A DNA stretch of 64,000 nt from Lysobacter panacisoli (lineage in GTDB: Bacteria > Pseudomonadota > Gammaproteobacteria > Xanthomonadales > Xanthomonadaceae). The translations under genes and the position numbers were made by a program. Each line of letters opens with the position of its first letter. Within the stretch, counting starts at the first letter, position 1. The stretch covers positions 2,345,001-2,409,000 of the forward strand of contig NZ_VLNU01000001.1 of the NCBI RefSeq assembly GCF_009765165.1, read 5' to 3'. The notes beneath the pieces were generated by a model. That model was not told where the DNA came from, ran no database searches, and was given only the letters and a program-made list of their open reading frames with translations. This document shows positions 5,931 through 47,381 of this stretch, in pieces.

Positions 5931-6433
5931 CAGCCGCCCCCCTGCGTGTTCTTGGGCATGATCTGGATCTTCACGCGACCGGCGCCTTCGCCGCCGCCCT
6001 GCACCTGGCCGGTCTTCATGTTGTAGACCACGCGTTCGCCAGCGATGGAACCGCTGGGCTGGCGGATGTTCACGCCGCCGGTGAAGACCACGATCTCGCT
6101 CTTGAGGTCGTAATCGACCTTGTTGGCGACCGCGTCCATCGCCTTGCCGTCGTCGAGTTCCTGCTTGAGCTTCACCGGACCGCCGGTCAGCACCGCACGC
6201 ACCGGCTCGCCGTCGCGCGAGGTGATGACGGCCTGGCTGGAGCGGATGTCGAGCGTGCCCTGCGTGATCACGACACCGCCGCTGAGCGTGGTCGGGCGGC
6301 TGTCGTCCAGCGAGTAGTCGGTGCGGCCCGCCTCGATGTCCATCGGCTTGGTGCGGTCGGACGTGCGCGCCAGCGCCGACGCCGGCGCCAGGGCCACCGC
6401 AAGCAGCGCCAGGCTAAGGAGCGGTGCGTTCAT
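5930..6433 (-). CDS. lptA: Periplasmic LPS-binding bridge protein LptA
   Basis: 167 residues. A Sec signal peptide (about 1-22, ending ALA) precedes one OstA/LptA beta-jellyroll domain, recognisable in the [14 protein letters not shown] and [21 protein letters not shown] stretches. LptA polymerises between LptC and LptD to carry LPS across the periplasm. Starting at 6433 gives the signal peptide; the first 20 coding bases overlap the end of lptC. The C-terminus has a Gly-rich tail. It lies in the kdsD-kdsC-lptC-lptA-lptB order. Confidence 0.93.
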
Positions 6434-6983
6434 ATCGGGCCTTGACGTCGTTCTGGAGGGTGACGCGCTGGGCATTGAGGTCGGCTTCCAACCCACGGCC
6501 GTTCAGTATAAGGCCGGGGTGGGTGACCGTTACCTGGGTGGCCGACGTGGCGCGCTTGGTATCCGGGAATACGTTCAGCTGCTCGGTGGCGATCCGGATC
6601 GGTTTGCCGCTGGCGTTGGTGCTGTCGGCATGGACGTCCCCGCGCAGGCGCAGCTCCTCGCCCTTGGCGTCGATCCAGCCGGTGCGCGAGCGGACTTCCC
6701 AGGGCGTGGCCTTGCTGCCGGCCTTAGGCGGGATCTCGAACAGCGGCGTGACGATGTCGATCGTCTCGGTGTCCGGATCGCGGTTCAGGCGCGGCGCGCT
6801 CACGGTGAACGCCTTGCGGCCCTCGTCGTTGAGCACCACCAGGCGGAAATCGTGCAGGACGTAGTCCGGGCGCTTGGGCGCGGTGCGGTTGTCCTTGTCG
6901 CGATCGCGCTGCGACCACAACGCCCAGCCGCTCAGGAAGGCACCCAGCGCCAGCACCGCGATCAGGATCGGACGCCAGTTCAT
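6414..6983 (-). CDS. lptC: LPS export protein LptC
   Basis: 189 residues (E. coli 191). One N-terminal membrane anchor (about residues 5-23) is followed by a periplasmic jellyroll that receives LPS from LptBFG and passes it to LptA. Sequence conservation in this family is low. The assignment rests on length, topology and position between kdsC and lptA, plus the DUF1239-like core around residues 40-180. Start and kdsC stop overlap as ATGA. Confidence 0.92.
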   Translation of the reverse strand: MNWRPILIAVLALGAFLSGWALWSQRDRDKDNRTAPKRPDYVLHDFRLVVLNDEGRKAFTVSAPRLNRDPDTETIDIVTPLFEIPPKAGSKATPWEVRSRTGWIDAKGEELRLRGDVHADSTNASGKPIRIATEQLNVFPDTKRATSATQVTVTHPGLILNGRGLEADLNAQRVTLQNDVKARYERTAP

Positions 6984-7561
6984 TGCCCGCCCTCCACGCG
7001 CTCACCTTCGACGCGGGTGATTTCGGCGAGGAGGCGCTCGGCATGGCCCTGCGCGGCCAGCAGCAGGTCGCAGAACTCGCGCACCGCGCCGTGGCCGGCA
7101 CGCGCGCCGGTGCGCCAGTGCACCCGCTCGGCGACCCAGCGGTGCGCATCGGCGGGCGCCACCGCGAAGCCGGCCTGCAGCATCACGCGCAGATCGGCGA
7201 GATCGTCGCCGACAAAGGCGACCTGTTCCATCTCCACGCCCACTCGTGCGGCGATGTCGCGCACGCAGGCGAGTTTGTCGCGCACGCTGGTGTGGACTTC
7301 CTCGATGCCCAGATCTTCGCCACGCCGCTTGGCGATGTCGCCACCGCGCGCGGTGACGAAGGCGACCGTGATGCCGACCTTGCGCAGCAACGACAGGCCT
7401 TGTCCGTCATGGACGTGGAAGGCCTTGAGTTCATTGCCCTGGCCGTCGAAGTACAGCCGGCCGTCGGTCAACGTGCCATCCACGTCGAAGCACGCCAGGC
7501 GGATGCGCGAGGCGCGCTCGCGGACGTCGGCGGGATAGTCGTTGAGATGGCTGTAGGGCAT
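6980..7561 (-). CDS. kdsC: 3-deoxy-D-manno-octulosonate-8-phosphate phosphatase
   Basis: 193 residues. This HAD-superfamily phosphatase removes phosphate from KDO-8-P in LPS inner-core synthesis. HAD motif I is FDVDGTLTDG, with nucleophile Asp26 and acid/base Asp28. Motif III/IV is FVGDDLADL. The small cap-less form is typical of KdsC. It follows kdsD by 54 bases and overlaps lptC by 4. Confidence 0.95.
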   Translation of the reverse strand: MPYSHLNDYPADVRERASRIRLACFDVDGTLTDGRLYFDGQGNELKAFHVHDGQGLSLLRKVGITVAFVTARGGDIAKRRGEDLGIEEVHTSVRDKLACVRDIAARVGVEMEQVAFVGDDLADLRVMLQAGFAVAPADAHRWVAERVHWRTGARAGHGAVREFCDLLLAAQGHAERLLAEITRVEGERVEGGQ

Positions 7562-7615
7562 CGAGGGCGGTAGGCGGTTCGGCGACGGTGAAAGGAAAAA
7601 CGGGCGACGCGATTC

Positions 7616-8638
7616 TTAAACCACCCGCGCGCGCAACAGGTCATGAATGTTGAGCGCACCGACCACGCGACCGGTGGTATCGATCACCAGCAGACCGCTG
7701 ATCTTGTGCGCTTCCATCAACTGCGCGGCCTCCACGGCCATCGCATCGGAGCCGATGGTCTTCGGCGAACGCGTCATCACTTCGACGATGCGCGTGTTAC
7801 GCAGATCGAAACGATCGTCGTCGAGCGTGCGGCGCAGGTCGCCGTCGGTGTAGAGACCGAGCAGACGGTTGTCGTCGTCGACCACCGCGGTCATGCCCAG
7901 TCGCTTGCGACTCATCTCGACCAGCGCTTCGCTGATGCTGGCGTCGGCGTGCACGCGCGGCACGTCGTCGCCGGAATGCATGATGTCGGCGATGTGCAGC
8001 AGCAGGCGGCGACCGAGCGCGCCGGCCGGGTGCGAACGCGCGAAATCGTCGGCGGTGAAGCCGCGCGCGTCGAGCAGCGCGACCGCCAATGCATCGCCCA
8101 TCGCCAGCGATGCGGTGGTGCTGGACGTCGGCGCGAGCGCGAGCGGGCAGGCCTCGGCCGGGACGCTCACGTCCAGATGCACGTCGGCTTCGCGCGCGAG
8201 GGAGGAATTGACGCGTCCGGTCATCGCGATGAGGCGGTTGCCCTGGCGCTTGAGCACCGGCAGCAGCATCAGCACCTCGTCGCTCTCGCCCGAGTACGAC
8301 AGCGCCAGGACGATGTCGACGTCGGTGATCATGCCCAGGTCGCCGTGGCCGGCCTCACCGGGGTGCACGTAGAACGCAGGGGTGCCGGTCGAGGCCAGGG
8401 TCGCGGCGATCTTGCGCGCGACGTGGCCGGACTTGCCCATGCCGGTGCAGACCACCCGCCCGTTCGAGGCGAGGATGAGCCGGCAGGCGGCGCTGAAGTC
8501 GCCGTCGATGCGGGCGGCGACCGCGGACAGCGCCTGCGCTTCGATCTCGAAGACGCGGCGTCCGCTGGCGGCCAGGGCGGCCGTGTCGTCTGCATGGGCG
8601 GGAGCGGGGACGGGGATGGTTGCCATTGGGCGTGCCAT
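7616..8638 (-). CDS. kdsD: Arabinose-5-phosphate isomerase
   Basis: 340 residues. A SIS sugar-isomerase domain (about 40-180), with CTGMGKSGHVARKIAATLAS and the STGTPAFYVHPGEAGHGDLG block, is followed by two CBS domains (about 215-340). It converts ribulose-5-P to arabinose-5-P, the first step of KDO synthesis. The first ATG is at 8638; another four codons in (8626) is equally possible, as neither has a good ribosome site. It is probably the first gene of the kds-lpt-rpoN transcript and is divergent from ibaG. Confidence 0.94.
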   Translation of the reverse strand: MARPMATIPVPAPAHADDTAALAASGRRVFEIEAQALSAVAARIDGDFSAACRLILASNGRVVCTGMGKSGHVARKIAATLASTGTPAFYVHPGEAGHGDLGMITDVDIVLALSYSGESDEVLMLLPVLKRQGNRLIAMTGRVNSSLAREADVHLDVSVPAEACPLALAPTSSTTASLAMGDALAVALLDARGFTADDFARSHPAGALGRRLLLHIADIMHSGDDVPRVHADASISEALVEMSRKRLGMTAVVDDDNRLLGLYTDGDLRRTLDDDRFDLRNTRIVEVMTRSPKTIGSDAMAVEAAQLMEAHKISGLLVIDTTGRVVGALNIHDLLRARVV

Positions 8639-35172: not shown

Positions 35173-36810
35173 TCAGTACACGTCGCGACGATAGCGACCG
35201 TCGGCGGCCATCGTCTCCAGCGCTTCCAGTCCCACCGCTTCGCGCAGCACGGCATCGACGCCGGGCGCCATGCCTTCGAGACTGCCGCAGACGTAGATGG
35301 CCGCGCCGTTCGTGATCCACTCGCGCAGGCGCGGCAATTCTTCGCGCAGGCGATCCTGCACGTACACGCGTCGCGAGGGATCCTCGCGCGAGAACGCGAG
35401 GTCCACGCGCTCGATCGCACCCTCGCGCAGCCAGGCTTCGATCTCGTCGCGATGGTGGAAATCGTGGTCGCGCTCGCGTTCGCCGAACAGCAGCCAGTTG
35501 CGGCGATGGCCCGCGACGATCCGTGCTTTCAGCAGTGCACGCAGTCCGGCCAGTCCCGTGCCGTTGCCGATCAGCACCACTGGACGGTCGTCCTGTGGCG
35601 GATGGAAGGCGGTGTTGCGGCGGATACGCACGTCGATGGATCCGCCCATCGGCGCATGTTCGGTCAGCCAGCCGCTGCCGCTGCCAAGCCGTCCGTCCGG
35701 GTGGCGCATCTGCCGTACCAGCAGTTCCAGGCGTCCGTCGGATGCGAGCGAGGCGATGGAGTATTCACGATGCGGCAACGGCTGCAGCGATTCGACCAGC
35801 GCCTGCACGCCGTGTCCGCGCACCTGCGCGATGTCGGGCAGTCGCGAGCGCTGCAGCCACTGCGCGAGCTCCATGCTCTCGTTGTTCGCCTCGATGCGCT
35901 GCGTGCCGTCGAAGCCGGCTTCAGCCAGCCATGCGGCGACGTGCGCGGGCGCGTGGCGTGGACCAATCTCGGCGATGTCGCCGGCTTGCCACTGCATGTC
36001 GCGTGCATCCACCGGCACTAGCGCGACGTGATAAGCAGGTCCACCGACGCTGCCGCGATTGAGCCAGCGGCGTTCATCCAGGCGCCATGTGCGATAGGCC
36101 GGCGCACTCCAGTCGGCGAGCGCGACGTGTCCGGCGATCTGGCCCAGCCGATGCTGCCAGTGACGCAGCGCACCGGCATCGCCCGCATCGACGTCGATCC
36201 GATCGAACAGCGGCTGCGCACCGCTGTGGTGCAGCCACTGGTCGAGACGTCGACCGAAGCCGCAGAAGTGGTCGTAGGCGCGATCGCCCAGTGCGAGTAC
36301 TGCGTATTGCAGGCCGTCCAGTGTCGTCGTCTCGCCCAGCATGTGACGGGTGAAGCCCAGCGCATGGTCCGGCGGATCGCCTTCGCCTGTGGTGCTGGCG
36401 ATGAACAGTGCACGCCGATGCGCGCGCAGTACGTCGGCATCCACACGTTGCAGCGGCAACGAACGCACCGGCACGCCCGCGCCGCGCAGGGCCTCGGCGG
36501 TGTGCTCGGCGACCTGCCGCGCGAATCCGGTCTGGCTGGCCCAGGCCAGCAGCACCCCACCGTCTTCGCCTGCGTCGTCGCCGTTGTTCTCCGTGGCGGC
36601 GCGCGAAGTGCGTGCGTCGAACCACGTGCTCACGCACAGGCCGACGAAGGCCAGCGCGACGACGATCGCCAGCACCCAGCTGCCCGCACGCGGCGAGGCG
36701 GTCCACCACGGCTCGCTCTGCCAACGCGCGAATGCGATGCCCGCAGCGAACAGCGCGCCCAACATCAGCGCGTTGCCGAACCAAACCTTCAGGGAACGAT
36801 CCTGCTTCAT
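35173..36810 (-). CDS. Membrane-anchored diflavin (flavodoxin-FNR) reductase
   Basis: 545 residues. Two N-terminal membrane helices (about 10-29 and 44-63) with basic ends place both tails in the cytosol. A flavodoxin domain follows (about 85-225, WASQTGFARQVAEH and IASTTGEGDPPDHA). Then comes an FAD/NADP reductase domain with REYS at 348-351 and VVLIGNGTGLAGLRALL. It should pass electrons from NADPH through FAD and FMN to a membrane partner. It resembles CysJ, and both end in RDVY, but CysJ has no helices. It is last in the iron operon; its ATG overlaps the apbE stop (TGATG). Confidence 0.9.
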   Translation of the reverse strand: MKQDRSLKVWFGNALMLGALFAAGIAFARWQSEPWWTASPRAGSWVLAIVVALAFVGLCVSTWFDARTSRAATENNGDDAGEDGGVLLAWASQTGFARQVAEHTAEALRGAGVPVRSLPLQRVDADVLRAHRRALFIASTTGEGDPPDHALGFTRHMLGETTTLDGLQYAVLALGDRAYDHFCGFGRRLDQWLHHSGAQPLFDRIDVDAGDAGALRHWQHRLGQIAGHVALADWSAPAYRTWRLDERRWLNRGSVGGPAYHVALVPVDARDMQWQAGDIAEIGPRHAPAHVAAWLAEAGFDGTQRIEANNESMELAQWLQRSRLPDIAQVRGHGVQALVESLQPLPHREYSIASLASDGRLELLVRQMRHPDGRLGSGSGWLTEHAPMGGSIDVRIRRNTAFHPPQDDRPVVLIGNGTGLAGLRALLKARIVAGHRRNWLLFGERERDHDFHHRDEIEAWLREGAIERVDLAFSREDPSRRVYVQDRLREELPRLREWITNGAAIYVCGSLEGMAPGVDAVLREAVGLEALETMAADGRYRRDVY

Positions 36811-37781
36811 CAGGCGAGCAACGCTTCGAACGCAGGCGTCATGCGTTCCACCACGTCGCCGTCGCGCGCATCGACGAAGCGCGCCGCCAGTCCGAGCGCC
36901 TCCGCCAGTTCGTAGCCCTCGCGCATGCCCAGCACCGTCAACGCCGTGGCCCAGGCGTCGGCGTGCATCGCGTCTGGCGCGGCGACGGTCACGGCAGTCG
37001 GCGCATCCGCGACCGCTCGGCCCGTGCGCGGATCCAGCGTGTGGCTCACTTCGCGCCCTTCATGCGAACGGCGATGCCAACGGTCGCCGGACGTCGCGAC
37101 GGCAAGCGCGTCGAGCGCCAGCACACGCGGTTCGCTCGCGTCGTCCTCATCGCCCGACCAGCCTTCGACGATCACCCGCCACGGCGAGCCGTCGGGTTTG
37201 CGTCCATATCCAGCGAGCTCGCCGCCGACTTCGACCAGTGCGCAGTCGATGCCATCCGCGCGCAACTGCGCGGCGACCGCATCCACCGCATGACCCTTCG
37301 CGATCGCGCACAGGTCCAGGCGCGTTCCGCCGGGCTGGAGCGCGCGTCGCGTGTCCGCATCGAGCACGACGCGCTGCCAGCCCACCTGTGCACGCACCGC
37401 ATCCGGCGAGAACGCACCGGCCTGGCGACCGGCGGGGCCGAAGCCCCAGGCATCCACCAGCGGGCCGATCGTCGGGTCGTAAGCGCCACCGCTGGCGTGC
37501 GCGACCTTCAGCGCACACGACAGCACCGTCCAGAACTCCTCCGGCAACACGTGCCAGGAACCCGCGGGCGATGCGTTGTAGCGGCTGAGGTCGGAATCCG
37601 CTTCCCAATTGCTCATCTGTGCGACGACACGGTCGAGCGTGGCCTGGATGCCGGCATGCACGCGGTGCAGATCGGCATGCGCCGGCGCGACCAGCTTCAC
37701 CGACCAGCTCGTGCCCATGCTCGCGCCGCCGAGGATGTCGACGGCGCGCGGAGCGTCCACGTTGGAAACGTTCGAAACCAC
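36810..37781 (-). CDS. apbE: ApbE family FAD:protein FMN transferase
   Basis: About 323 residues from a GTG at 37781; a GTG at 37760 is also possible. Family motifs are all present: GGASMGTSWSV at the N-terminus, DPTIGPLVDAWGFG, LDLCAIAKGHAVD, SGDRWHRR followed by SHTLDPRTGRAV, and MHADAWATALTVLG with the metal-binding Asp. ApbE attaches FMN by a phosphoester bond to Thr/Ser of target proteins. Unusually, no signal peptide or lipobox is visible at any possible start. The likely target is the DUF2271 protein encoded two genes upstream. Confidence 0.92.
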   Translation of the reverse strand: MVSNVSNVDAPRAVDILGGASMGTSWSVKLVAPAHADLHRVHAGIQATLDRVVAQMSNWEADSDLSRYNASPAGSWHVLPEEFWTVLSCALKVAHASGGAYDPTIGPLVDAWGFGPAGRQAGAFSPDAVRAQVGWQRVVLDADTRRALQPGGTRLDLCAIAKGHAVDAVAAQLRADGIDCALVEVGGELAGYGRKPDGSPWRVIVEGWSGDEDDASEPRVLALDALAVATSGDRWHRRSHEGREVSHTLDPRTGRAVADAPTAVTVAAPDAMHADAWATALTVLGMREGYELAEALGLAARFVDARDGDVVERMTPAFEALLA

Positions 37782-37786
37782 CGTGC

Positions 37787-38596
37787 TTACTGCGGCAGCA
37801 CTTCCAGCGTGGCGACGTAGCCGAGGCGACGCTGCTTGGCCTGCGGCACGCTGGTCTTCTTGTCTTCGCTCGTCGCTTCGAGCCAGTACATGCCGGCTTC
37901 CGGCCACGTCACCGAGAACTCGCCCTTGGCGTCGGTCTTGACCTTCAACTCGTCCTGCGCGTTGCGGTAGCGCGTGTTGCCGCGCACGATCTCGACGTCG
38001 AGACCCGCGGCCGGCTTGCCGTCGATCTGCAGGCGGAACGTCGCCGCCTCGCCCGCGAACAGGTCGTTGGGATGCGTCACCGGCACCAGCTCCAGGCCTT
38101 CGCCGCTGGGCTTGAGCGCGGTTTCGCTGGGCGAACCATTGGTGACGAAGGTTTCCACGCGGCTGACCGACTGCGAGACCTGCAGCTTCTTCGCATCCTT
38201 CGGCACGCCGGTCGCGAACTCGGCCACCGTGCCGCGCCAGCGCTTGGGCTGGCCGTTCTCTTCCCATTGGCCGATCACGTAGTTGTTGACCACGCCGATG
38301 CGGTAGGTGCCGGTCTGCTTGAGTTCGACGTCGAACACCGAACGGTATTTGCCGGTCGCGCTGTTCTGCGGCGCGACCGTGCTGCCGTCGGGCGCGGTGA
38401 TGGTCAGGTTGTCCGTGCGCAGCGGCACGTGGTTGAAATAGAACAGGTCGTTGGAGACCGCCGCATCGACCGTCACCCACGGGTTGTTGCCAGCGAGCAC
38501 CGTCTGCGAAGGCTGCAGCCAGGCCTTGTGCGCCTGTGCGGCGAAGGGCAGGGACAGCGCGGCGACGAGGGCCGCGGTGATGAGGGAACGCTTCAT
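37787..38596 (-). CDS. DUF4198 family periplasmic protein
   Basis: 269 residues with a clear signal peptide (about 1-22, cleaved after AQA). The mature protein starts [28 protein letters not shown], the typical DUF4198 N-terminus with an early His. Two beta-sandwich halves follow, the second with a transthyretin-like [21 protein letters not shown]. Members occur in metal-uptake loci and are thought to act in periplasmic metal delivery. It sits between the DUF2271 and apbE genes in the iron operon. GGAG lies 7 bases before the ATG. Confidence 0.88.
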
Positions 38597-38635
38597 GGCG
38601 ATGCTCCGTGGAGGAAGTCGATGAGAGTGCTGGGC

Positions 38636-38712
38636 GTCATTCCCGCGCGGGCCCGGACCCAGCGACTGGAGAGGGGGAGGGCACACCGGCCCGGCGCCCC
38701 CGCGGGAACGAC
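38636..38712. repeat. 77-base inverted-repeat element inside the iron operon
   Basis: Arms GTCATTCCCGCG and CGCGGGAACGAC (one mismatch) flank a GC-rich centre between the DUF2271 stop and the DUF4198 start. This is the interspersed CATTCCCGCG type seen in Xanthomonadaceae. It would fold into a long hairpin in the operon mRNA and could lower expression of the downstream genes. Confidence 0.7.
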
Positions 38713-38721
38713 AAAGAGGAA

Positions 38722-39231
38722 TCAGGAACGCGTGGACAGCGTGACCGTGCCGAGCTCGGCACTGCCCTGCGCCTGGCCGTTGCTGGTGCCGCCCCACTTG
38801 AACGGGATCTTCAGCAGCTCGCGACCGCCGACTTCGCGCGCGGCCTCGATCACCAGCGTGTACTCGCCCGGCGGCAGCTTGCCGAGTTCCGGATGCTGGT
38901 CGGTGAACTGCAGCGCGTGCTTGCCGACCGGACGCGTCGGACCGGTCACGCCATCCACCGGCACCTTCAGCGTGCGACCGCTGCGGCGCCACCACTGGCG
39001 CAGGTCCGGCAGCCACTTGGTGCCGGCGCCTTCACTGGTCGCCTTCTGCTGGTACCACACCGCGAGATTGGCGAGCGCCTTCTGGTCAGCGCCTTCGACC
39101 CAGATCGCCACGTACGGGCGGTGGTATTCGGCGACGTTGAGCTGCGGGATCTGCACGTTGAGGTTGATCTCGGCCGAGTACGCCGGCAGCGCGAGCAGGC
39201 CGCTCAGGGCGATGGTCAGTTGGACGCGCAT
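38722..39231 (-). CDS. DUF2271 family periplasmic protein, probable covalent flavoprotein
   Basis: 169 residues. The signal peptide (about 1-20, cleaved after YSA) precedes a single beta-rich DUF2271 domain ([41 protein letters not shown]). At residues 93-99 the sequence DGVTGPT matches the ApbE target pattern D-G-x-T/S-G-A-T except that Pro replaces Ala; the acceptor would be Thr99. With ApbE in the same operon, covalent FMN is a reasonable inference. GGAG lies 5 bases before the ATG. It follows the PepSY gene by 22 bases. Confidence 0.87.
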
Positions 39232-39253
39232 GGGAACTCCGTGGGGTGTGGGG

Positions 39254-39898
39254 TCAGTGGATGAACAGCAATGCGAGCAGCAGCGGCAACGCCAGGCCCA
39301 GTGCAACGTAGGGCCAGGTCGCGCGGCGCTGGCGCGCGTGCATCTGCAGCAGGAACAGACCGGTAATGCAGAACACGAGGCAGGCCAGCGCGAACACGTC
39401 GATGAACCAGCGCCATGCCGTGCCCGCGTTGCGGCCCTTGTGCAGGTCGTTGAGATAGGCGATCCAGCCGCGCGTGGTGCGTTCGTATTCCACCGCGCCG
39501 CTGGCGCGATCGATGCTCAGCCACGCATCGCCACCGGGACGCGGCAGCGAAAGGTAAACCTCGTCGCTCGACCATTCCGCGTTCTGCTTGCCGATCGACA
39601 CCGGCAGCACGTCGCCGAGCCAGTCCGCGACCGTGCCCGGCAGTGGCGCGTTGCCGTCCTCGCGCGTGCCAAGCGCGCGCAGCACCGAGGCGGGCATCTC
39701 GACCTTGCGGTTGAGCGTGTGCGGCTTCGCCTCGATCGCGGAGGAGTGGTTCAGCGTGACTCCGGTGATCGCGAACAGCAGCATGCCGACCAGGCAGATC
39801 GCCGAGCTGATCCAGTGCCACGAATGCAGCGTGCGCAGCCAGAAGCCGCGTCGCTGTTGGCGGGCGGCGATGTCGGGCGCGTTGGAGGATGCGGACAC
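39254..39898 (-). CDS. PepSY-associated transmembrane protein
   Basis: 214 residues. An N-terminal cytosolic tail precedes helix 1 (about 27-49), flanked by His25, His28 and His51, with LRTLHSWHWISSAICLVG. A periplasmic PepSY-like domain follows (about 50-160), then helix 2 (about 162-187) and helix 3 (about 194-213). Histidines at the membrane face could hold heme, as in ferrisiderophore-reductase relatives. It starts with GTG, and the GAGG of its ribosome site overlaps the piuC stop. It is inferred to carry electrons from the diflavin reductase to the periplasm. Confidence 0.87.
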   Translation of the reverse strand: MSASSNAPDIAARQQRRGFWLRTLHSWHWISSAICLVGMLLFAITGVTLNHSSAIEAKPHTLNRKVEMPASVLRALGTREDGNAPLPGTVADWLGDVLPVSIGKQNAEWSSDEVYLSLPRPGGDAWLSIDRASGAVEYERTTRGWIAYLNDLHKGRNAGTAWRWFIDVFALACLVFCITGLFLLQMHARQRRATWPYVALGLALPLLLALLFIH

Positions 39899-39905
39899 GT
39901 CGGCC

Positions 39906-40592
39906 TCAGGTATCGGCCCAGCGCCGCAACAGGTTGTGATAGACGCCGGTGAGCTGCACCAGTGCGGGGTGGTCCGGCACGTCCTGGGTGAGTCGTCGGA
40001 TCGATACGTCCAGCTCGAACATCATCCGGCGCTGCGCGTCCTCGCGCACCAGGCTCTGGATCCAGAAGAACGAGGCCAGTCGCTCGCCGCGCGTCACCGG
40101 CGTCACCTTGTGCAGGCTGGTGCCCGGATACAGCACCATGTCGCCGGCCGCGAGCTTCACCTTCTGCACGCCGTAGGTGTCTTCGATCACCAGCTCGCCG
40201 CCGTCGTAGTCTTCCGGCGCGTTGAGGAACAGCGTCGCCGACAGGTCGGTGCGGATCGGATCGGCACCGCCCTCGCTGCGGTCGTAGCGGATCGCGTTGT
40301 CGACATGGAAACCGAACGACTGCCCGCCGCTGTAACGGTTGAAGAGCGGCGGATAGATGCGCTGCGGCAATGCCGCGGAGAAGAACGTCGAATTGCGCGC
40401 AAGCGCTTCGAGCACGAGGACGCCCAGCTCGCGCGCCACCGGATCGTTCTCCGGCAGCTGCGCATTGTCCTTGGCCATCGCCGACTGGTAGCCGGCGGTG
40501 ATGCGACCGTCGGCCCAGCCGGCATTCGCGAGGCGGTCGCGGAAATGCGCGACCTGATCGGCGGACAGCACCTGCGGCACCTGCAGCAGCAT
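39906..40592 (-). CDS. PiuC-like Fe(II)/2-oxoglutarate-dependent hydroxylase
   Basis: 228 residues. The double-stranded beta-helix iron site is His96-x-Asp98 (FHVDNA) and His161 ([10 protein letters not shown]), with a following Arg for 2-oxoglutarate. Family blocks [37 protein letters not shown] and [18 protein letters not shown] are intact. PiuC/PKHD-type genes lie next to TonB-dependent siderophore receptors in many gammaproteobacteria and are iron-repressed; the substrate is unknown. AAGGAG lies 6 bases before the chosen ATG. It follows the receptor gene. Confidence 0.93.
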
Positions 40593-40609
40593 CTTCGACT
40601 CCTTCAATG

Positions 40610-40636
40610 CGTCCGCCCGGGCATGCCGGGCGGACG
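40610..40636 (-). terminator. Strong hairpin between the receptor gene and piuC
   Basis: A perfect 11-base stem (CGTCCGCCCGG / CCGGGCGGACG) with a 5-base loop, just before the piuC ribosome site. There is no T-run, so partial termination or 3'-end protection is likely. Either would make the receptor more abundant than the downstream proteins. Confidence 0.6.
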
Positions 40637-40671
40637 AAGCCGGTACGGGCAAATCAGCCCAGGAACCGGGA

Positions 40672-42981
40672 TTAGAACCTGTACGTGGCCTGCAGCACCA
40701 CCGAGCGCTCGTCGCCCGGGGTCGCCCAGCCGTTGTTGCGGACGCGGATGTAGTACTCCTTGTCGAACAGGTTGTTGGCGTTGAGCTGCAGGCTCAGGCG
40801 CTCGTTGACGCTGTAACCGACCATCGCGCGGTGCGTCGTGTAGCCCTTGATCGTGCCCGCGTTGGCGCCGGTACCGGTGTAGTAGTCGTAGCTGCTCTGG
40901 TAGGTGATGCCGTAGCCGAAGGTCCACTGCGACAGCTCGTAGGTGGTCCACACGCTGCCCGCGCGTTCCGGCGTGCCGCTGATCGGACGGCCTTCCAGCG
41001 GATCGGGATTGGCGGCGGTGTTGCCGCACGCCGTGCTCGGATTGGTCTTGCAGAAGTCCGACACGCCCTGCAGCACTTCGCTGTCGAGCCAGGTCACGTT
41101 GGCGAACACCGACCAGTGGTCCGCAAGCTGACCGGCCACGCCGAGCGACACGCCGTCGACACGCGCCTCGCCATCGAGCTGCTGCTCGCCGCTCGGATTG
41201 GCCGGGTTGCCCGGATCAGCGACCTTGAACTCCTCGCGGTCGTTGCGGAACACCGCACCGGTCAGCGCCAGGCGCTGGTTGATGTCCCACTTCGCGCCGA
41301 ATTCGATGTTGACGGCGCTTTCCGGATCGACGTTGCAGTTGGCCGTGCCGGTGGTGCTGGTCGCGGTGCACGAGCCGTTGACCGAAGCCTTCGACGGGGT
41401 CTTGCTGTTCGCGTACGACACGTACAGCGTGCCGTTCGCGGCTGGCTTGAAGATCAGGCCCGCGCGGTAGGAGAACAGATCGTCCTCGTTTTCCGACACG
41501 GTGCGGCCGGTGACTTGGCCCAGGGTCGGGCTGCCCGCCGTGGTGTTGAAGGTGTACGCGACGCTGTCGCCCTTGTTGTGCTCGTAACGCGCGCCGAGGT
41601 TGAGCATCCAGCGCTCGCTGAACTTCAGCGTGTCGAACGCGTAGATCGCCTGGTTGTCCAGGCTGCCCTCGGTGATGCCGCTGCGGATGAAATTGATCGG
41701 GCCGGTGTAGCGCGAGTCGGGATCGCTGATCGACATCAGCGGCAGCGTCACCGCGGTGCCGTTGGCGGTGCGGAACAGGTTGCCGGTGTCGAGGTCGAAG
41801 TCCTCGCGCGACAGCGACACGCCCGCCACCAGCGAGTGCTCGACCGAGCCGGTGTCGAAGTGCGAGATGACGTCGGTCTGGCTGATCGCGATGGTGTTGC
41901 GGGTGTCGCGCTTGAAGCCGCGCGGGCCGCTCGGAAGGTAGGTGTTCGGCTGCATCGTCGTCGGACAGGCGACGCCGGTCGCGGCGTTGATGCCGCTTGC
42001 CAGGCACCACGTTCCCTGCGGTGCGTCGACGATGCTCAGCTGGTCGACTTGCTGGTAGCGCGCGAGGCTGCGCAGCGTGATCTTGTCGTTGAAATCGTGC
42101 TCGAACACGCCGGTCAGCATGTCGACGTCGATCTCCTGCGTGTCGATGTTGTGGTAGCCGTAGTAGTTCGACGGATCCACGCCTGGCAGCGGACCGCCGA
42201 AGGCGCTGAAGTACGGCACGCCGTACTGCGGGACGTTCTCGTCGCTCTGGTGCAGGTAGCTCAGGGTGAAGCGCGTGTCGCCGTCCAGGCCGAACGCCAC
42301 CGACGGCGCGATGCCCCAGCGCTTGAACTGCTCGTAGTCGCGGCCCGGCGCGTCGTTCTCGTGAACCATCGCGTTGACGCGGAACGCCGTGCCGTTGTCG
42401 AAGTCGGTGTTGCTGTCGACGGTGATGCGGCCGAAGCTGTCGGTGCCGACGCCCGCGGTGACGTTGGTCGAATCGCCGGTGCGCGCGCTCTTGCTCACCA
42501 GGTTGATGTTGCCGCCGACCGAGCCTGCGCCGGAGTAGACCGAGTTGGCGCCGTTGACCAGTTCGATCGCGTCGAGGTTGAAGGTGTCGCTGCGCGAGTA
42601 CTGCGCGCTGTCGCGCACGCCGTCGGTGGTGATGTCGCTGTTGGCGTTGAAGCCACGCAGCGTGATGCTGTCGCCGTAACCGCCGCCGCCTTCGCCCGCG
42701 CCGAAGGTGATGCCGGGCAGAGTGCTCAGCACGTCGCGCAGGCCCAGCAGGTTCTGCTGGTCCATCACGTCCTTGGTGATGACGGTGATCGTCTGCGGCG
42801 TATCGAGCAGCGGCTCGGTGTACTTCACCGAGGACGGCTTCTCGACGTACTCGCCGTGCACTTCGATCTTGTCCAGATCCTTGGCCTGCGGCTCGCCGGC
42901 CGGGTCGGCCAGCACGGGCGTGACGACGGCAAGGGCGAGGGCGCCGGCGAGCGGCGAGACGACGAACTTCCTGTTGGACAT
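40672..42981 (-). CDS. TonB-dependent siderophore receptor
   Basis: 769 residues. The signal peptide (about 1-25, cleaved after VLA) is followed by a possible TonB box in DKIEVHG, then the plug domain (about 45-170: [24 protein letters not shown], then [19 protein letters not shown]). A 22-strand barrel ends in the outer-membrane signature ATYRF. There is no N-terminal signalling domain, so it does not feed a sigma/anti-sigma pair. It resembles Fiu/catecholate receptors, but the ligand is not certain. It is the first gene of the iron operon, behind a Fur-box promoter. Confidence 0.95.
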
Positions 42982-43026
42982 GTTGATCCCGATGTCGTGG
43001 TGCGGCGGGGGCCGCGGCGGACGACA

Positions 43027-43055
43027 ATCTTAATGAGATCGATTCGCATTTACAA
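43027..43055 (-). promoter_or_regulatory. Promoter with Fur box in the spacer, iron operon
   Basis: Reading the minus strand: -35 TTGTAA (43055-43050), a 17-base spacer, then -10 TAAGAT (43032-43027). The 19-base sequence at 43050-43032, AATGCGAATCGATCTCATT, is an imperfect 9-1-9 inverted repeat matching the Fur-box style and spans the whole spacer. Bound Fur-Fe would block polymerase. The start codon of the receptor is about 45 bases downstream. Confidence 0.75.
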
Positions 43056-43201: not shown

Positions 43202-43528
43202 TCAGCCGCGATCGTCGCGGGTCCAGACCCCGCCGTCCTCGACCTTCACCGGGAAACGCACGACCGGCTCGTAGGCCGGTGCGCATAGAGCGCGGCCGTC
43301 GCGCACGTCGAACTTGGCGCCGTGCAGGACGCATTCGACGGTGGCTTCGTCGCCGTCGTAGTTGCCGGCCGACAGCTCGAAGTCCTCGTGCGAACACTTG
43401 TCCTCGAGGGCATAGAAGTCGCCGTCGTAGTTCACCACGAGGATCGGCGTGTCGCCGTCCCAGGCCACCGTGCGCTCGCCCGGCAGCAGTTGCGAGGTTG
43501 CGCAGACGAACACCCAGCCGTCGCTCAC
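43202..43528 (-). CDS. Rieske-type non-heme ferredoxin
   Basis: 108 residues. The Rieske cluster motif is Cys45-x-His47 (CSHEDF) and Cys66-x2-His69 (CVLHGAKFD), ligating a 2Fe-2S centre. The size and sequence fit stand-alone ferredoxins of the NirD/dioxygenase type. The GTG start overlaps the GNAT stop as GTGA, so it is coupled to the suf operon as its last gene. Its likely role is electron transfer linked to Fe-S assembly or quality control, inferred from position alone. Confidence 0.9.
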   Translation of the reverse strand: MSDGWVFVCATSQLLPGERTVAWDGDTPILVVNYDGDFYALEDKCSHEDFELSAGNYDGDEATVECVLHGAKFDVRDGRALCAPAYEPVVRFPVKVEDGGVWTRDDRG

Positions 43529-44088
43529 AGTGCCTTCTCCAGCACCTCGAAGCGCAGGTCGTCGCGTTTGGGTTCGCCGAAGCGCGCGTCGCCGTAGGGG
43601 AACGGCTTCTTGATGCCGGTACGACGGTAGCCGCGACGCTCGTAGAACGCGATGAGTTCGTCGCGGATATCGATGACGGTCATGCGCATCGCCGGCAGGC
43701 CCCAGTCTTCGCGAACGAGGCGCTCGGCTTCGGCGATGACGACTTTGCCGACGCCGCCGCCCTGCTGCGTCGGCTGCACCGAGAACATGCCGAAGTAGCC
43801 CGCGCCCTCTTCGTCCGCAACGTGTGCACAGGCGATCAGTTCGTCGCCATTCGCACCGCGGCGTTCGGCGATCAGGATCACGCTGCGCGATCGGTCGATA
43901 CAGGCCTGGATGTCGTCCGGACCGGTGCGGCGTCCGCCGAGCATGTCGGCCTCGGTGGTCCAGCCCTGCTTGCTGGCGTCGCCGCGATAGGCGGACTCGA
44001 CCAGCGCGACGAGCGCGTCGATGTCGGTGAGGGTGGCGTGGCGGAAGCGGAGGCCGGCGTGCGCGGGCGAAGGGGCGATCGTGTTCAT
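43525..44088 (-). CDS. GNAT family N-acetyltransferase
   Basis: 187 residues. The GNAT fold is recognisable from LRFRHATLTDIDALVALVESAY, the central FGMFSVQPTQQGGGVGKVVIAEAE (acetyl-CoA pyrophosphate loop QGGGVGK) and ELIAFYERRGYRRTG. Substrate unknown. Its start overlaps the sufS stop (ATGA) and its stop overlaps the Rieske start. It is therefore a built-in part of the suf operon and may modify a Suf protein or a small amine. Confidence 0.9.
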   Translation of the reverse strand: MNTIAPSPAHAGLRFRHATLTDIDALVALVESAYRGDASKQGWTTEADMLGGRRTGPDDIQACIDRSRSVILIAERRGANGDELIACAHVADEEGAGYFGMFSVQPTQQGGGVGKVVIAEAERLVREDWGLPAMRMTVIDIRDELIAFYERRGYRRTGIKKPFPYGDARFGEPKRDDLRFEVLEKAL

Positions 44089-45326
44089 CCGAGCAGTTTA
44101 CGCACCTTGCGCAGTGCCGCGACGAAGGCATCGACCTCGTCATGGGTGTTGTAGAAAGCCAGCGACGCGCGGCAGGTCGCGGGTACGCCGAAGTGCTGCA
44201 TGAGCGGATGCGCGCAATGGTGGCCGGAGCGGATCGCCACGCCTTCCAGGTCGAGAAGCGTCGCCAGGTCGTGCGCGTGCGCGCCTTGGACCAGGAAGCT
44301 GATCACCGCCGCCTTGTCGCGCGCCTGGCCGAAGATGCGCAGGCCATCGACCTTCGACAGTTCCTCGGTCGCGTGCGCCAGCAGTTCCTGTTCGCGCGCC
44401 TCGATGTTCTCCATGCCCAGCGCGGACAGGTAATCCACCGCCGCGCCCAGGCCGATGAAGCCGGCGATGTTCGGCGTGCCCGCTTCGAACTTGTGCGGCG
44501 GCTCGTTGAACACGGTGCCTTCGAAACGCACTTCCTTGATCATCTCGCCACCGCCGATGAAGGGCGGCATCGCGGCGAGGTGCTCGCGACGCGCCCACAG
44601 CGCGCCGGTGCCGGTCGGGCCGGACATCTTGTGGCCGGTGATCGCATAGAAATCGCAGCCGATCGCGGCGATGTCGAGCGGGCGGTGCGGTGCGGCCTGC
44701 GAGCCGTCCACCGCGGTGACGATGCCGCGCTTGCGTGCTTCGCGGCAGATCTCGCGCACGGGATTCACCGTGCCCAGCACGTTGGAGACGTTGGTCAGCG
44801 AGAGCAGTTTCACGTCCGGCGTGAGCAGCGAATACAGCTGCGCCAGGTCGAGTTCGCCGCGTTCGTTGAGCTCGGCCACCTTGATCGTCGCGCCGGTGCG
44901 CTGCGCGACGAGCTGCCACGGCACGATGTTGGCGTGGTGCTCCATGCGCGTGAGCACGATCGAATCGCCCGGCTGCAGGCGAGGTAGCGCCCACGAATAC
45001 GCGACCAGGTTCAGCGCGAAGGTGGTGCCGCTGCACAGCACCAGCTCGTCGCCGCGCACGTTGAAGAACTTCGCCAGTTTCGCGCGCGCGCCTTCATAGG
45101 CGTCGGTCGCTTCGGTGCCGAGCGCATGCACGGCGCGACTGACGTTGGCGTTGTGATTACGATAGAAATCGTCGACCGCTTCGATCACCGATTCCGGTTT
45201 CTGTCCGGTGTTGGCCGAATCGAAATAGATCAGCGGCTTGCCGTGGACTTCGCGCGTGAGCAGCGGGAAGTCGGTGCGGACGCGGGCCCAGTCGACGGCA
45301 GCGGTGGAGGAAGCGGGGAGGTTCAT
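44085..45326 (-). CDS. sufS: Cysteine desulfurase SufS
   Basis: 413 residues (E. coli 406). This PLP enzyme takes sulfur from cysteine for Fe-S assembly. The PLP lysine is Lys233 in ITGHKMSGPTGTG and the persulfide cysteine is Cys371 in RSGHHCAHPL. Other blocks are YFDSANTGQKPESV and MEHHANIVPWQ. GGAG lies 5 bases before the ATG, which overlaps the sufD stop as ATGA. The usual partner SufE is not in this operon and must be encoded elsewhere or be absent. Confidence 0.96.
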   Translation of the reverse strand: MNLPASSTAAVDWARVRTDFPLLTREVHGKPLIYFDSANTGQKPESVIEAVDDFYRNHNANVSRAVHALGTEATDAYEGARAKLAKFFNVRGDELVLCSGTTFALNLVAYSWALPRLQPGDSIVLTRMEHHANIVPWQLVAQRTGATIKVAELNERGELDLAQLYSLLTPDVKLLSLTNVSNVLGTVNPVREICREARKRGIVTAVDGSQAAPHRPLDIAAIGCDFYAITGHKMSGPTGTGALWARREHLAAMPPFIGGGEMIKEVRFEGTVFNEPPHKFEAGTPNIAGFIGLGAAVDYLSALGMENIEAREQELLAHATEELSKVDGLRIFGQARDKAAVISFLVQGAHAHDLATLLDLEGVAIRSGHHCAHPLMQHFGVPATCRASLAFYNTHDEVDAFVAALRKVRKLLG

Positions 45327-46618
45327 GCGGACTCCAGTCGGGCCAGCGCGGCATCCAGACGGACTTCGAGCGCGCGGCGCAGGTCCGCGTCGGCGGACAT
45401 CACGGCGAGCGTTTCGCGACAGAACGCCGCGGTCAGCAGGGCGCGCGCCTGGTCGGCCGGAACGCCACGGCTGCGCAGGTAGAACAGCGCGGTCTGGTCG
45501 AGCTGGCCGACAGTCGCGCCGTGCGCGGCCTGTACTTCGTCGGCGTGGATCTCGAGCACCGGCTGGGTGTCGATCTCGGCGCCTTCGCTGAGCAGCAGGT
45601 TCTTGTTGGACAGCGAAGCAGCGGTGCCGTCGGCGCCTTCGCGGATCAGGATGCCACCGTGGAACGCGGCCTTGGAGCGGCCCGCCGCCATGCCGCGCCA
45701 GGTCAGTTCGCACGAGGAGTCACGACCGACGTGATCGATGCCCAGGCGCGTGTCGAGGTGGCGCTTGCCGCTGGCGAGCAGTACGCCATTGGCGTGCAGG
45801 CGCGCGGACTGGCCGTGCAGGGCGACGTTGAGTTCGTGCCGCGACAGGCCAGCGCCGAGTTCGAGGTCGATGCGGCGGTACTCGGCATCCTTCGCCAGCA
45901 CCGCATCGGTGCGCGCCATCAGCGTCGCGCCCGTGGCCTCGTCCTGTACGCGCGCATGGCGCAGGGTGGCGGCTTGACCGAGATGCACATGGGTCAGGTG
46001 GTTGGCGAGATGGTTGTGCGCGCCGTCGCCGATGCAGTGCTCGACGAGCGTGAGCGCGGCGCCGTCGCGCAGCTCGACGAGGTGGCGAAGATGCCATGCG
46101 CGATCGCCATCGGCCGTCGCGCCGATGAAGACCAGGTGGATCGGCTGGCTCGACTGCACGCCGGCGTCGGCGCGCAGCACCACGCCGTCGTCGGCGAGCG
46201 CGGCGTTGAGGCGGGCGAAGATCTCATCGGCGCGATCGAAACGGCGCGCGAGGAAGTTGGCGTCGCGCGGCTCGCCGTCGACCAGAACCTGCGAGAGCGG
46301 CAGCAGGCGCACGCCGTCGGGGAGTGCGGCCAGATCGCTGTGCGCGGCGTCGAAGCGTCCATTGACGAAGACGATGCGCGGGCCGGCGATGTCTGCGAGC
46401 AGGGCGGTATCGAACGACGGCGCGGCGCCGGGAGACGCGAACGCGCGTCGTTCCAGCGAGCGCAGCGGCGTGTACTTCCACGCTTCCACGCGCGCGTGCG
46501 GGATGCCGTCGCGCAGCACGGCATCGAGTGCTGCGCGGCGACTGTCGCCGAGCCCGGCGGCGTCGCGTGCGGGCAGCGAGTCGAAAGCGGCCGCGAAGGA
46601 GTCGAGCAGGGCGCTCAT
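45323..46618 (-). CDS. sufD: Fe-S cluster assembly protein SufD
   Basis: 431 residues (E. coli 423). It is part of the SufBC2D scaffold in the cytosol. The N-terminal helical region contains ARVEAWKYTPLRSLERR. The C-terminal beta-helix core carries ELNVALHGQSARLHANGVLLA, LDTRLGIDHVGRDSS and SNKNLLLSEGAEIDTQPVLEIHADEVQAAHGATVG. I chose the start at 46618, one base after the sufC stop; the frame continues upstream without family similarity. Confidence 0.95.
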   Translation of the reverse strand: MSALLDSFAAAFDSLPARDAAGLGDSRRAALDAVLRDGIPHARVEAWKYTPLRSLERRAFASPGAAPSFDTALLADIAGPRIVFVNGRFDAAHSDLAALPDGVRLLPLSQVLVDGEPRDANFLARRFDRADEIFARLNAALADDGVVLRADAGVQSSQPIHLVFIGATADGDRAWHLRHLVELRDGAALTLVEHCIGDGAHNHLANHLTHVHLGQAATLRHARVQDEATGATLMARTDAVLAKDAEYRRIDLELGAGLSRHELNVALHGQSARLHANGVLLASGKRHLDTRLGIDHVGRDSSCELTWRGMAAGRSKAAFHGGILIREGADGTAASLSNKNLLLSEGAEIDTQPVLEIHADEVQAAHGATVGQLDQTALFYLRSRGVPADQARALLTAAFCRETLAVMSADADLRRALEVRLDAALARLESA

Positions 46619-46619
46619 G

Positions 46620-47381
<762 letters not shown>

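Follow-up and report, generated by a model that had tools for sequence, protein, structure and literature searches.

The seven-gene locus and its published relatives

Here, we describe seven genes in a 64,000-nucleotide stretch of the Lysobacter panacisoli genome (contig NZ_VLNU01000001.1, positions 2,345,001 to 2,409,000; hereafter the window) that would form an iron-starvation operon. All lie on the minus strand and run from 42981 to 35173 in the order TonB-dependent receptor, PiuC, PepSY, DUF2271, DUF4198, ApbE and two-helix reductase. A first-pass annotation of the same DNA had listed these co-directional genes in this order behind a Fur-type promoter, and it holds on both counts: every gene was located, Pfam bears out the families, and a candidate Fur box (AATGCGAATCGATCTCATT, 43032..43050, minus strand) stands 51-69 bases ahead of the receptor start. 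The closest named loci of the host genome (3.88 Mb, 99.99% complete), judged by DUF2271, are mostly from Lysobacter (82-89% identity), from which the family Xanthomonadaceae, called the family below, was assigned.

The receptor (40672..42981, 769 residues, hydrophobic N-terminus) is of the PiuA/Fiu type, in the catecholate-class siderophore receptor family, and carries the Pfam domains TonB_dep_Rec_b-barrel and Plug. Its nearest solved structures are 5fok (E 2.4e-110), 5nec (7.7e-107) and 5fp1, which correspond to PiuA and PiuD (the PDB titles being generic), with Fiu (6bpm, 2.5e-78) after them. It scores 235.4 bits against the siderophore receptor model TIGR01783 (cut-off 223.5) and 419.5 bits against the NCBIfam Fiu equivalog, below the cut-off of 686. 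The adjoining gene (39906..40592, 228 residues) encodes a PKHD-type Fe(II)/2-oxoglutarate dioxygenase with 2OG-FeII_Oxy_3 and PKHD_C domains (PF13640 and PF18331), and has PiuC as its top solved match (9qn1, E 2.7e-97). A PiuA-like receptor next to PiuC is the arrangement of the piuA-piuC pair. There follow the PepSY_TM-like inner-membrane protein (39254..39898, 214 residues; PF16357, PepSY_TM_like_2, 1.4e-84), the exported DUF2271 protein with a Sec-type signal (38722..39231, 169 residues; PF10029, 7.5e-49, and motif alignments), the exported DUF4198 protein (37787..38596, 269 residues; PF10670, 2.8e-64; hydrophobic N-terminus at 4-22), the ApbE flavin transferase without an export signal (36810..37781; PF02424, 3.9e-74; PDB 5mgy, E 1.5e-58) and the membrane-anchored reductase (35173..36810, 545 residues; Flavodoxin_1, 6.7e-25, and NAD_binding_1, 5.8e-10). 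The ApbE start is uncertain, GTG at 37781 being likely; its residue numbers below count the codon 37790-37788 as 1.

In operon order, the intergenic gaps are 79, 7, 22, 125, about 5-10 and -1 bases, such that five of the six are shorter than 80 bases and ApbE overlaps the reductase by one. Between DUF2271 and DUF4198, the 125 bases fold into a strong hairpin (-56.7 kcal/mol; 38636..38713, minus strand) with an outer repeat, GTCRTTCCCGCG, at 38636 and 38701. Three 12-mers resembling this repeat (at most one mismatch) occur in the window against 0.96 expected, a number reached by 9 of 100 shuffles. The hairpin is possibly a dispersed repeat element or an attenuator, and despite it a single unbroken transcript across all seven genes is likely from the layout.

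Iron control of the operon is suggested by the candidate Fur box. A degenerate pattern, AATGNGAATNNNTCTCATT, derived from the window site itself, has no other match with one mismatch or fewer in the 3.88 Mb of the genome. Scored against a palindromic Fur consensus, the region ahead of the leading gene of the run contains a site with at most 5 mismatches in 29 of 44 family loci (the window included), compared to 48 of 880 random stretches from the same sequences; with at most 3 mismatches, the counts are 14/44 and 18/880. Further upstream on the same strand (43202-46699), inspection of the open frames by eye suggests a Rieske-type protein, an acetyltransferase, SufS and SufD, which would put iron-sulfur cluster genes on the flank of the iron operon.

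The co-occurrence of DUF2271, ApbE and the reductase in other genomes, offered as a check by the first-pass annotation, is strong. DUF2271 is present in 47 of 99 sampled family genomes (our own counted), and the core order PepSY-DUF2271-DUF4198-ApbE-reductase is uninterrupted in 42 of the 43 other family loci of the high-scoring type. At the remaining locus (L055), the start of the reductase is gone together with ApbE and DUF4198, or the assembly is at fault: a DUF2271 gene is followed directly by a two-piece reductase remnant (6374-7669), and ApbE was not found in that genome. At 33 of the 43 loci, the retrieved stretch also has receptor and PiuC upstream on the same strand, and at 20 of those they form one run with the core. 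At four loci (L008, L012, L019, L021), the same core stands behind a clearly different receptor (phmmer scores to the window receptor of ~320-400, against ~700-1440 in most), and the receptor ahead of the core seems exchangeable. Eight more family loci are of other types: four encode ApbE and DUF2271 within a single open frame, and in the other four a divergent DUF2271, missed by the profile, stands next to reductase and ApbE. Loci with the single ApbE-DUF2271 frame (L072, L073, L076 and L079; Pfam-tested in L072) also have DUF4198 and a TonB receptor nearby. Outside the family, 48 of 61 loci have a DUF2271 profile match, the core frequently being partial.

The first-pass annotation had also judged the combination of a CysJ-like reductase with an ApbE-modified carrier in a siderophore operon to be no textbook system. 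This is not borne out, as this set of five genes has been published as a Fur target in Caulobacter and corresponds to a described PepSY-like system. Judged by its sequence, the operon is a member of the PepSY-like flavinylation system by the published definition: it has a protein of PF03929/PF16357 (here PF16357) inside a flavinylation-associated cluster, and a signal peptide or lipidation on at least one flavinylation target (here DUF2271, by hydrophobicity scan). There are 3220 such clusters, 231 with a TonB receptor, and iron reduction together with a role for siderophore-bound iron has already been proposed for them (Meheust 2021, PMC8238504). The described system shares with the window a PepSY-like protein, ApbE, DUF2271, a secreted DUF4198 and sometimes a TonB receptor and an NAD-binding module (Meheust 2021, PMC8238504). 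The window differs in having TGPT instead of [S/T]GA[S/T] as its attachment motif, an ApbE without a signal, the module for NADPH (reduced nicotinamide adenine dinucleotide phosphate) on a separate two-helix flavodoxin reductase, and PiuC as a member.

The Caulobacter genes CC_3059-3063 comprise the same five families in the same order, co-directional in the window. They rise 12 to 44 fold under iron limitation, with a promoter fusion that is iron- and Fur-responsive and a validated Fur binding site (PMC3751524), and insertions in them (CC_3059-3063 / CCNA_03155-03159) reduce fitness on ethylenediaminetetraacetic acid (EDTA) (PMC3751524, PMC11870441). The difference is that the Caulobacter receptor and dioxygenase (CC_0028-0027, cciT-cciO) are at a separate locus. 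A receptor followed by a PKHD-type dioxygenase is likewise known from the piuA-piuC, fiu-ybiX and cciT-cciO pairs, of which a PepSY gene is the next commonest neighbour, in fewer than 25% of genomes (PMC12004943); in contrast to these, the window pair runs straight into the five-gene electron-transfer set.

A variant attachment motif and an ApbE without an export signal

ApbE attaches flavin mononucleotide (FMN) to substrates with the canonical motif D-x-x-[S/T]-G-A-[S/T], which the window DUF2271 does not match. Its motif is D93-G-V-T-G-P-T99, with Thr99 as the predicted FMN site. Published work found a conserved [S/T]GA[S/T] in 282 DUF2271 proteins, demonstrated flavinylation of DUF2271 in A. 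ursilacus, and abolished the flavinylation of one DUF2271 by replacing the predicted Thr (Meheust 2021, PMC8238504). Among the best 120 of 6686 homologues of the window protein, 115 have [ST]GPT, 3 TAPT and 2 TGAT (Pro in 118/120). Position 98 is Ala in 54 and Pro in 53 of 107 non-redundant loci rows, with no other residue, and has switched between the two at least 8 times on the best tree, whose support is modest. Thr99 is conserved throughout (64 Thr and 1 Ser of 65). The Pro variant (TGPT) was not found in the running text of the ApbE flavinylation papers searched, figure logos and supplements aside.

The window ApbE has no hydrophobic N-terminal segment, and hence lacks the signal or lipid anchor of a canonical extracytosolic ApbE. 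The same is true of 135 of the ApbEs in 145 DUF2271-ApbE pairs (window included), with signals in none of the 69 Pro-type pairs and in 10 of the 76 Ala-type ones. By contrast, the same scan finds a signal in 142 of the 145 DUF2271 proteins, the remaining 3 being signal-like by eye. The scan measures hydrophobicity and is not SignalP (cut-offs of 2.0 for ApbE and 1.5 for DUF2271), and it is blind to unusual export routes; as a positive control, the nos ApbE encoded elsewhere in this genome scores 3.36. Within the family, the ApbE signal is present in 9 of 13 Ala-type and 0 of 45 Pro-type pairs. Outside it the counts are 1 of 63 and 0 of 24, so that a missing signal is no general companion of Pro. 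A soluble Klebsiella fumarate reductase has a cytosolic ApbE, and secreted targets are served by membrane-bound, exported ApbE (2025 ApbE review). Measured against that pattern, a signal-less ApbE beside an exported DUF2271 is odd, and points to attachment before export: this suggests that FMN is attached to DUF2271 in the cytosol. Such a pairing is not discussed in the signal-peptide text of Meheust 2021, and was not found in the titles and abstract openings of the papers matched by a literature search.

The ApbE partner also changes with the motif. The window ApbE has the loop TSGDRW in place of TSGDYR, and among the 87 DUF2271-ApbE pairs compared first, the Tyr of T-S-G-D-Y is kept in 30 of 35 Ala-type and absent from 51 of 52 Pro-type pairs. 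A second sample consisted of 60 loci that we chose from 128 places in three other families, mostly better-scoring and previously unsampled. Of these, 58 had an ApbE; non-Tyr accompanied Pro in 11 of 17 pairs and Tyr accompanied Ala in 27 of 41, and Pro alone thus proved too narrow a trait. Redefined, once the data had been inspected, to cover every deviation from Gly97-Ala98, the trait gives Tyr in 24 of 26 canonical and non-Tyr in 23 of 32 non-canonical pairs of the second sample. In the joint set (n=145), the corresponding counts are 52/56 and 77/89, although ApbE column 237 had been picked on the first 87 pairs, themselves part of that set. When independent pairs are drawn from all branches of the tree (14 pairs), Tyr237 shows the best agreement among the 312 ApbE columns (mean 7.5 with, 0 against). 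It ranks second of 313 for Pro98 alone and falls outside the first 12 of 315 for loss of Asp93. Asn or Ser replaces Asp93 in 6 of the 7 rows that combine Pro with Tyr. This covariation backs DUF2271 as the ApbE substrate. The motif variant with its covariation, and the signal-less ApbE beside an exported substrate, go beyond the published literature consulted.

Where might column 237 lie in the enzyme? The window ApbE has Ser234, His250 and Asp278, each conserved in 95% or more of 25 aligned rows. These would correspond, by a constant offset of 7 between unaligned chains, to the V. cholerae triad Ser241-His257-Asp285 given in the review. If this match is right, Tyr237 lies three residues past the catalytic Ser. 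Separately, ApbEs paired with DUF2271 rows in which Asp93 has become Asn or Ser often have the loop [ST]SGNY (loci L184, L185, L190, L191, L194, L023-L025 and L109), Asn being present in 10 of 18 such rows and 2 of 127 others. The link may reflect shared descent, as the Asn column is outside the first 12 in the independent-pair ranking. The genome of the window has two ApbE types: at the end of a nos cluster (G000:C1:3422000-3440000, L080), read as NosZ, NosR with VSGAT, NosD, NosF, NosY and NosL, stands another ApbE, whose N-terminal segment is hydrophobic and whose loop is SGDYL. Insulation between two ApbE systems was considered as an explanation for the Pro motif and rejected as a general one: of 30 Pro-type genomes, two ApbEs are present in only 8, a single one in 21 and none in one (L055).

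Putting motif and partner together, we tentatively suggest, at somewhat less than even confidence, that a cytosolic ApbE loads FMN before export onto D-x-x-[S/T]-G-P-T, and that enzyme and carrier have co-evolved via the Tyr at 237. TGPT in place of [S/T]GA[S/T] complicates the idea of a flavinylated DUF2271 in the periplasm, as does an ApbE without an export signal; the first-pass annotation had noted neither. On well-supported branches only, the covariation shrinks to 4 independent pairs (mean 2.3 same, 0 opposite, 1.7 no difference), which is not significant; for Pro alone there are 3 pairs (1.3 same, 0.2 opposite).

It may then be asked whether a TGPT DUF2271 is flavinylated at all, or whether the signal-less ApbE modifies another, cytosolic protein while DUF2271 acts otherwise. 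Besides the missing signal, the form of the published motif speaks for this, as do an Ala to Val change in another substrate that cut flavinylation to about half (review) and the retention of TGPT at L055 with no ApbE adjoining. We nevertheless consider it unlikely: Thr99 is retained almost without exception, Pro is the sole alternative to Ala through the repeated changes at position 98, Tyr237 of ApbE shifts along with the DUF2271 motif, and most Pro-type genomes have a single ApbE.

Probable electron transfer and release of iron

The PepSY protein has three hydrophobic segments (26-52, 160-189 and 193-214) with histidines 25, 28, 51, 153, 187 and 214 close to the membrane faces. In an alignment of 64 sequences, His28 and His153 are kept in all 64, His51 in 59, His187 in 48 and His25 in 42, while His214 is kept in the 56 of 56 sequences with data. 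FoxB, a siderophore reductase of the PepSY family with haem-binding histidines in its trans-membrane helices (PMC11334425), belongs to the same family as the window protein but has a longer chain. The structural match of the PepSY model (predicted local distance difference test score 92.9) to FoxB (PDB 7abw) is weak, and haem binding therefore rests on family knowledge. By this analogy, histidine pairs in PepSY would hold b-type haems.

In the reductase, hydrophobic stretches at 9-28 and about 38-67 form a two-helix anchor, followed by a flavodoxin domain (FMN) and a CysJ-like module for flavin adenine dinucleotide (FAD) and NADPH that ends in RRDVY; flavodoxin, FAD and NADPH motifs are present. 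Both halves match CysJ and cytochrome P450 reductase. The score against NCBIfam CysJ (254.6 bits) is below the cut-off of 668.15, and the anchor is an addition at the N-terminus. All four long reductases that were checked (L074, L128, L130, L132; three from outside the family) have PepSY_TM, flavodoxin and the NADPH module in one chain, and each adjoins a DUF2271 place. These fusions tie the reductase to PepSY: they have the same modules as the window, with DUF2271 and ApbE adjoining, but as a single polypeptide, whereas the window has PepSY and a separate two-helix reductase. In all, reductase frames of more than 730 codons beside a divergent DUF2271 were seen at L074, L075, L077, L078, L128-L135, L137-L139 and L141, the four checked for the fusion among them. 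P. aeruginosa PA4513 is presumably a further PepSY-flavodoxin-NADPH fusion.

The genome has one FeoB match and no match to the FecCD permease, despite its 99.99% completeness and matches in 13 of 14 control genomes. With no permease of that common type for an incoming ferric siderophore, periplasmic release of the iron is favoured, an argument that covers one genome and FecCD-type permeases only.

In light of these findings, we consider it probable, taking the reading as one whole, that this iron-starvation operon uses periplasmic reduction to obtain iron from a ferric siderophore, probably of the catecholate type. The PiuA/Fiu-like receptor would carry the ferric siderophore through the outer membrane. 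The anchored reductase would pass electrons from NADPH to FAD and then FMN at the cytosolic face and on to PepSY, which, via b-type haems (by homology to FoxB), would move them across the membrane. There, the FMN on exported DUF2271, attached to Thr99 by the local ApbE, most likely in the cytosol before DUF2271 is exported, would accept them and reduce the ferric siderophore or ferric iron, and Fe(II) would enter the cell by FeoB. DUF4198 would be an exported helper protein that may bind the metal or the complex; PiuC would act on the siderophore or fragments of it. The path drawn in the first-pass annotation, from NADPH through FAD/FMN and the PepSY histidines to DUF2271 and the ferric siderophore, survives as the best reading given the fusions, the histidines, the gene order and FeoB without FecCD; its flavinylated periplasmic carrier is the part that motif and transferase complicate.

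PepSY could instead be a siderophore permease, akin to FptX/RhtX, with the flavin proteins only aiding iron release in the cytosol. PepSY proteins beside iron-regulated receptors have been read as permeases (Manck 2020), and some inner-membrane route is needed where FecCD has no match. Yet a chain of only three hydrophobic segments, with conserved histidines at the membrane faces, is ill-suited to this role, the fusions to reductases elsewhere suit electron transfer, and an exported flavin carrier would be left without a role; we regard this account as quite improbable. We give equally little credence to a carrier that protects during iron stress by reducing a non-siderophore target (Cu(II), a thiol or methionine sulfoxide), for although CciT/CciO matter for copper resistance in Caulobacter and a zur mutant changed two genes of the five-gene operon there, this stands against the candidate Fur box, the receptor and PiuC context, the Fur regulation of the Caulobacter operon and its fitness loss on EDTA, and the iron response of DUF2271 and DUF4198 genes reported in Alteromonas.

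Implications for flavinylation and iron uptake

Should FMN be loaded in the cytosol by an ApbE that co-evolves with its carrier, this would make it unnecessary to explain how FAD gets to an ApbE in the periplasm, and would amount to a code by which ApbE recognises its substrates. The paired changes in motif and ApbE offer a direct handle on substrate recognition, and the missing signal one on the place of attachment and on the supply of FAD, which is called obscure in the 2025 ApbE review. For the organism, a genome with FeoB and without a FecCD match is a clean place in which to test periplasmic iron release. Bacteria that lack siderophore permeases and are limited for iron must free it in the periplasm, and the operon described here would be a compact answer to that need.

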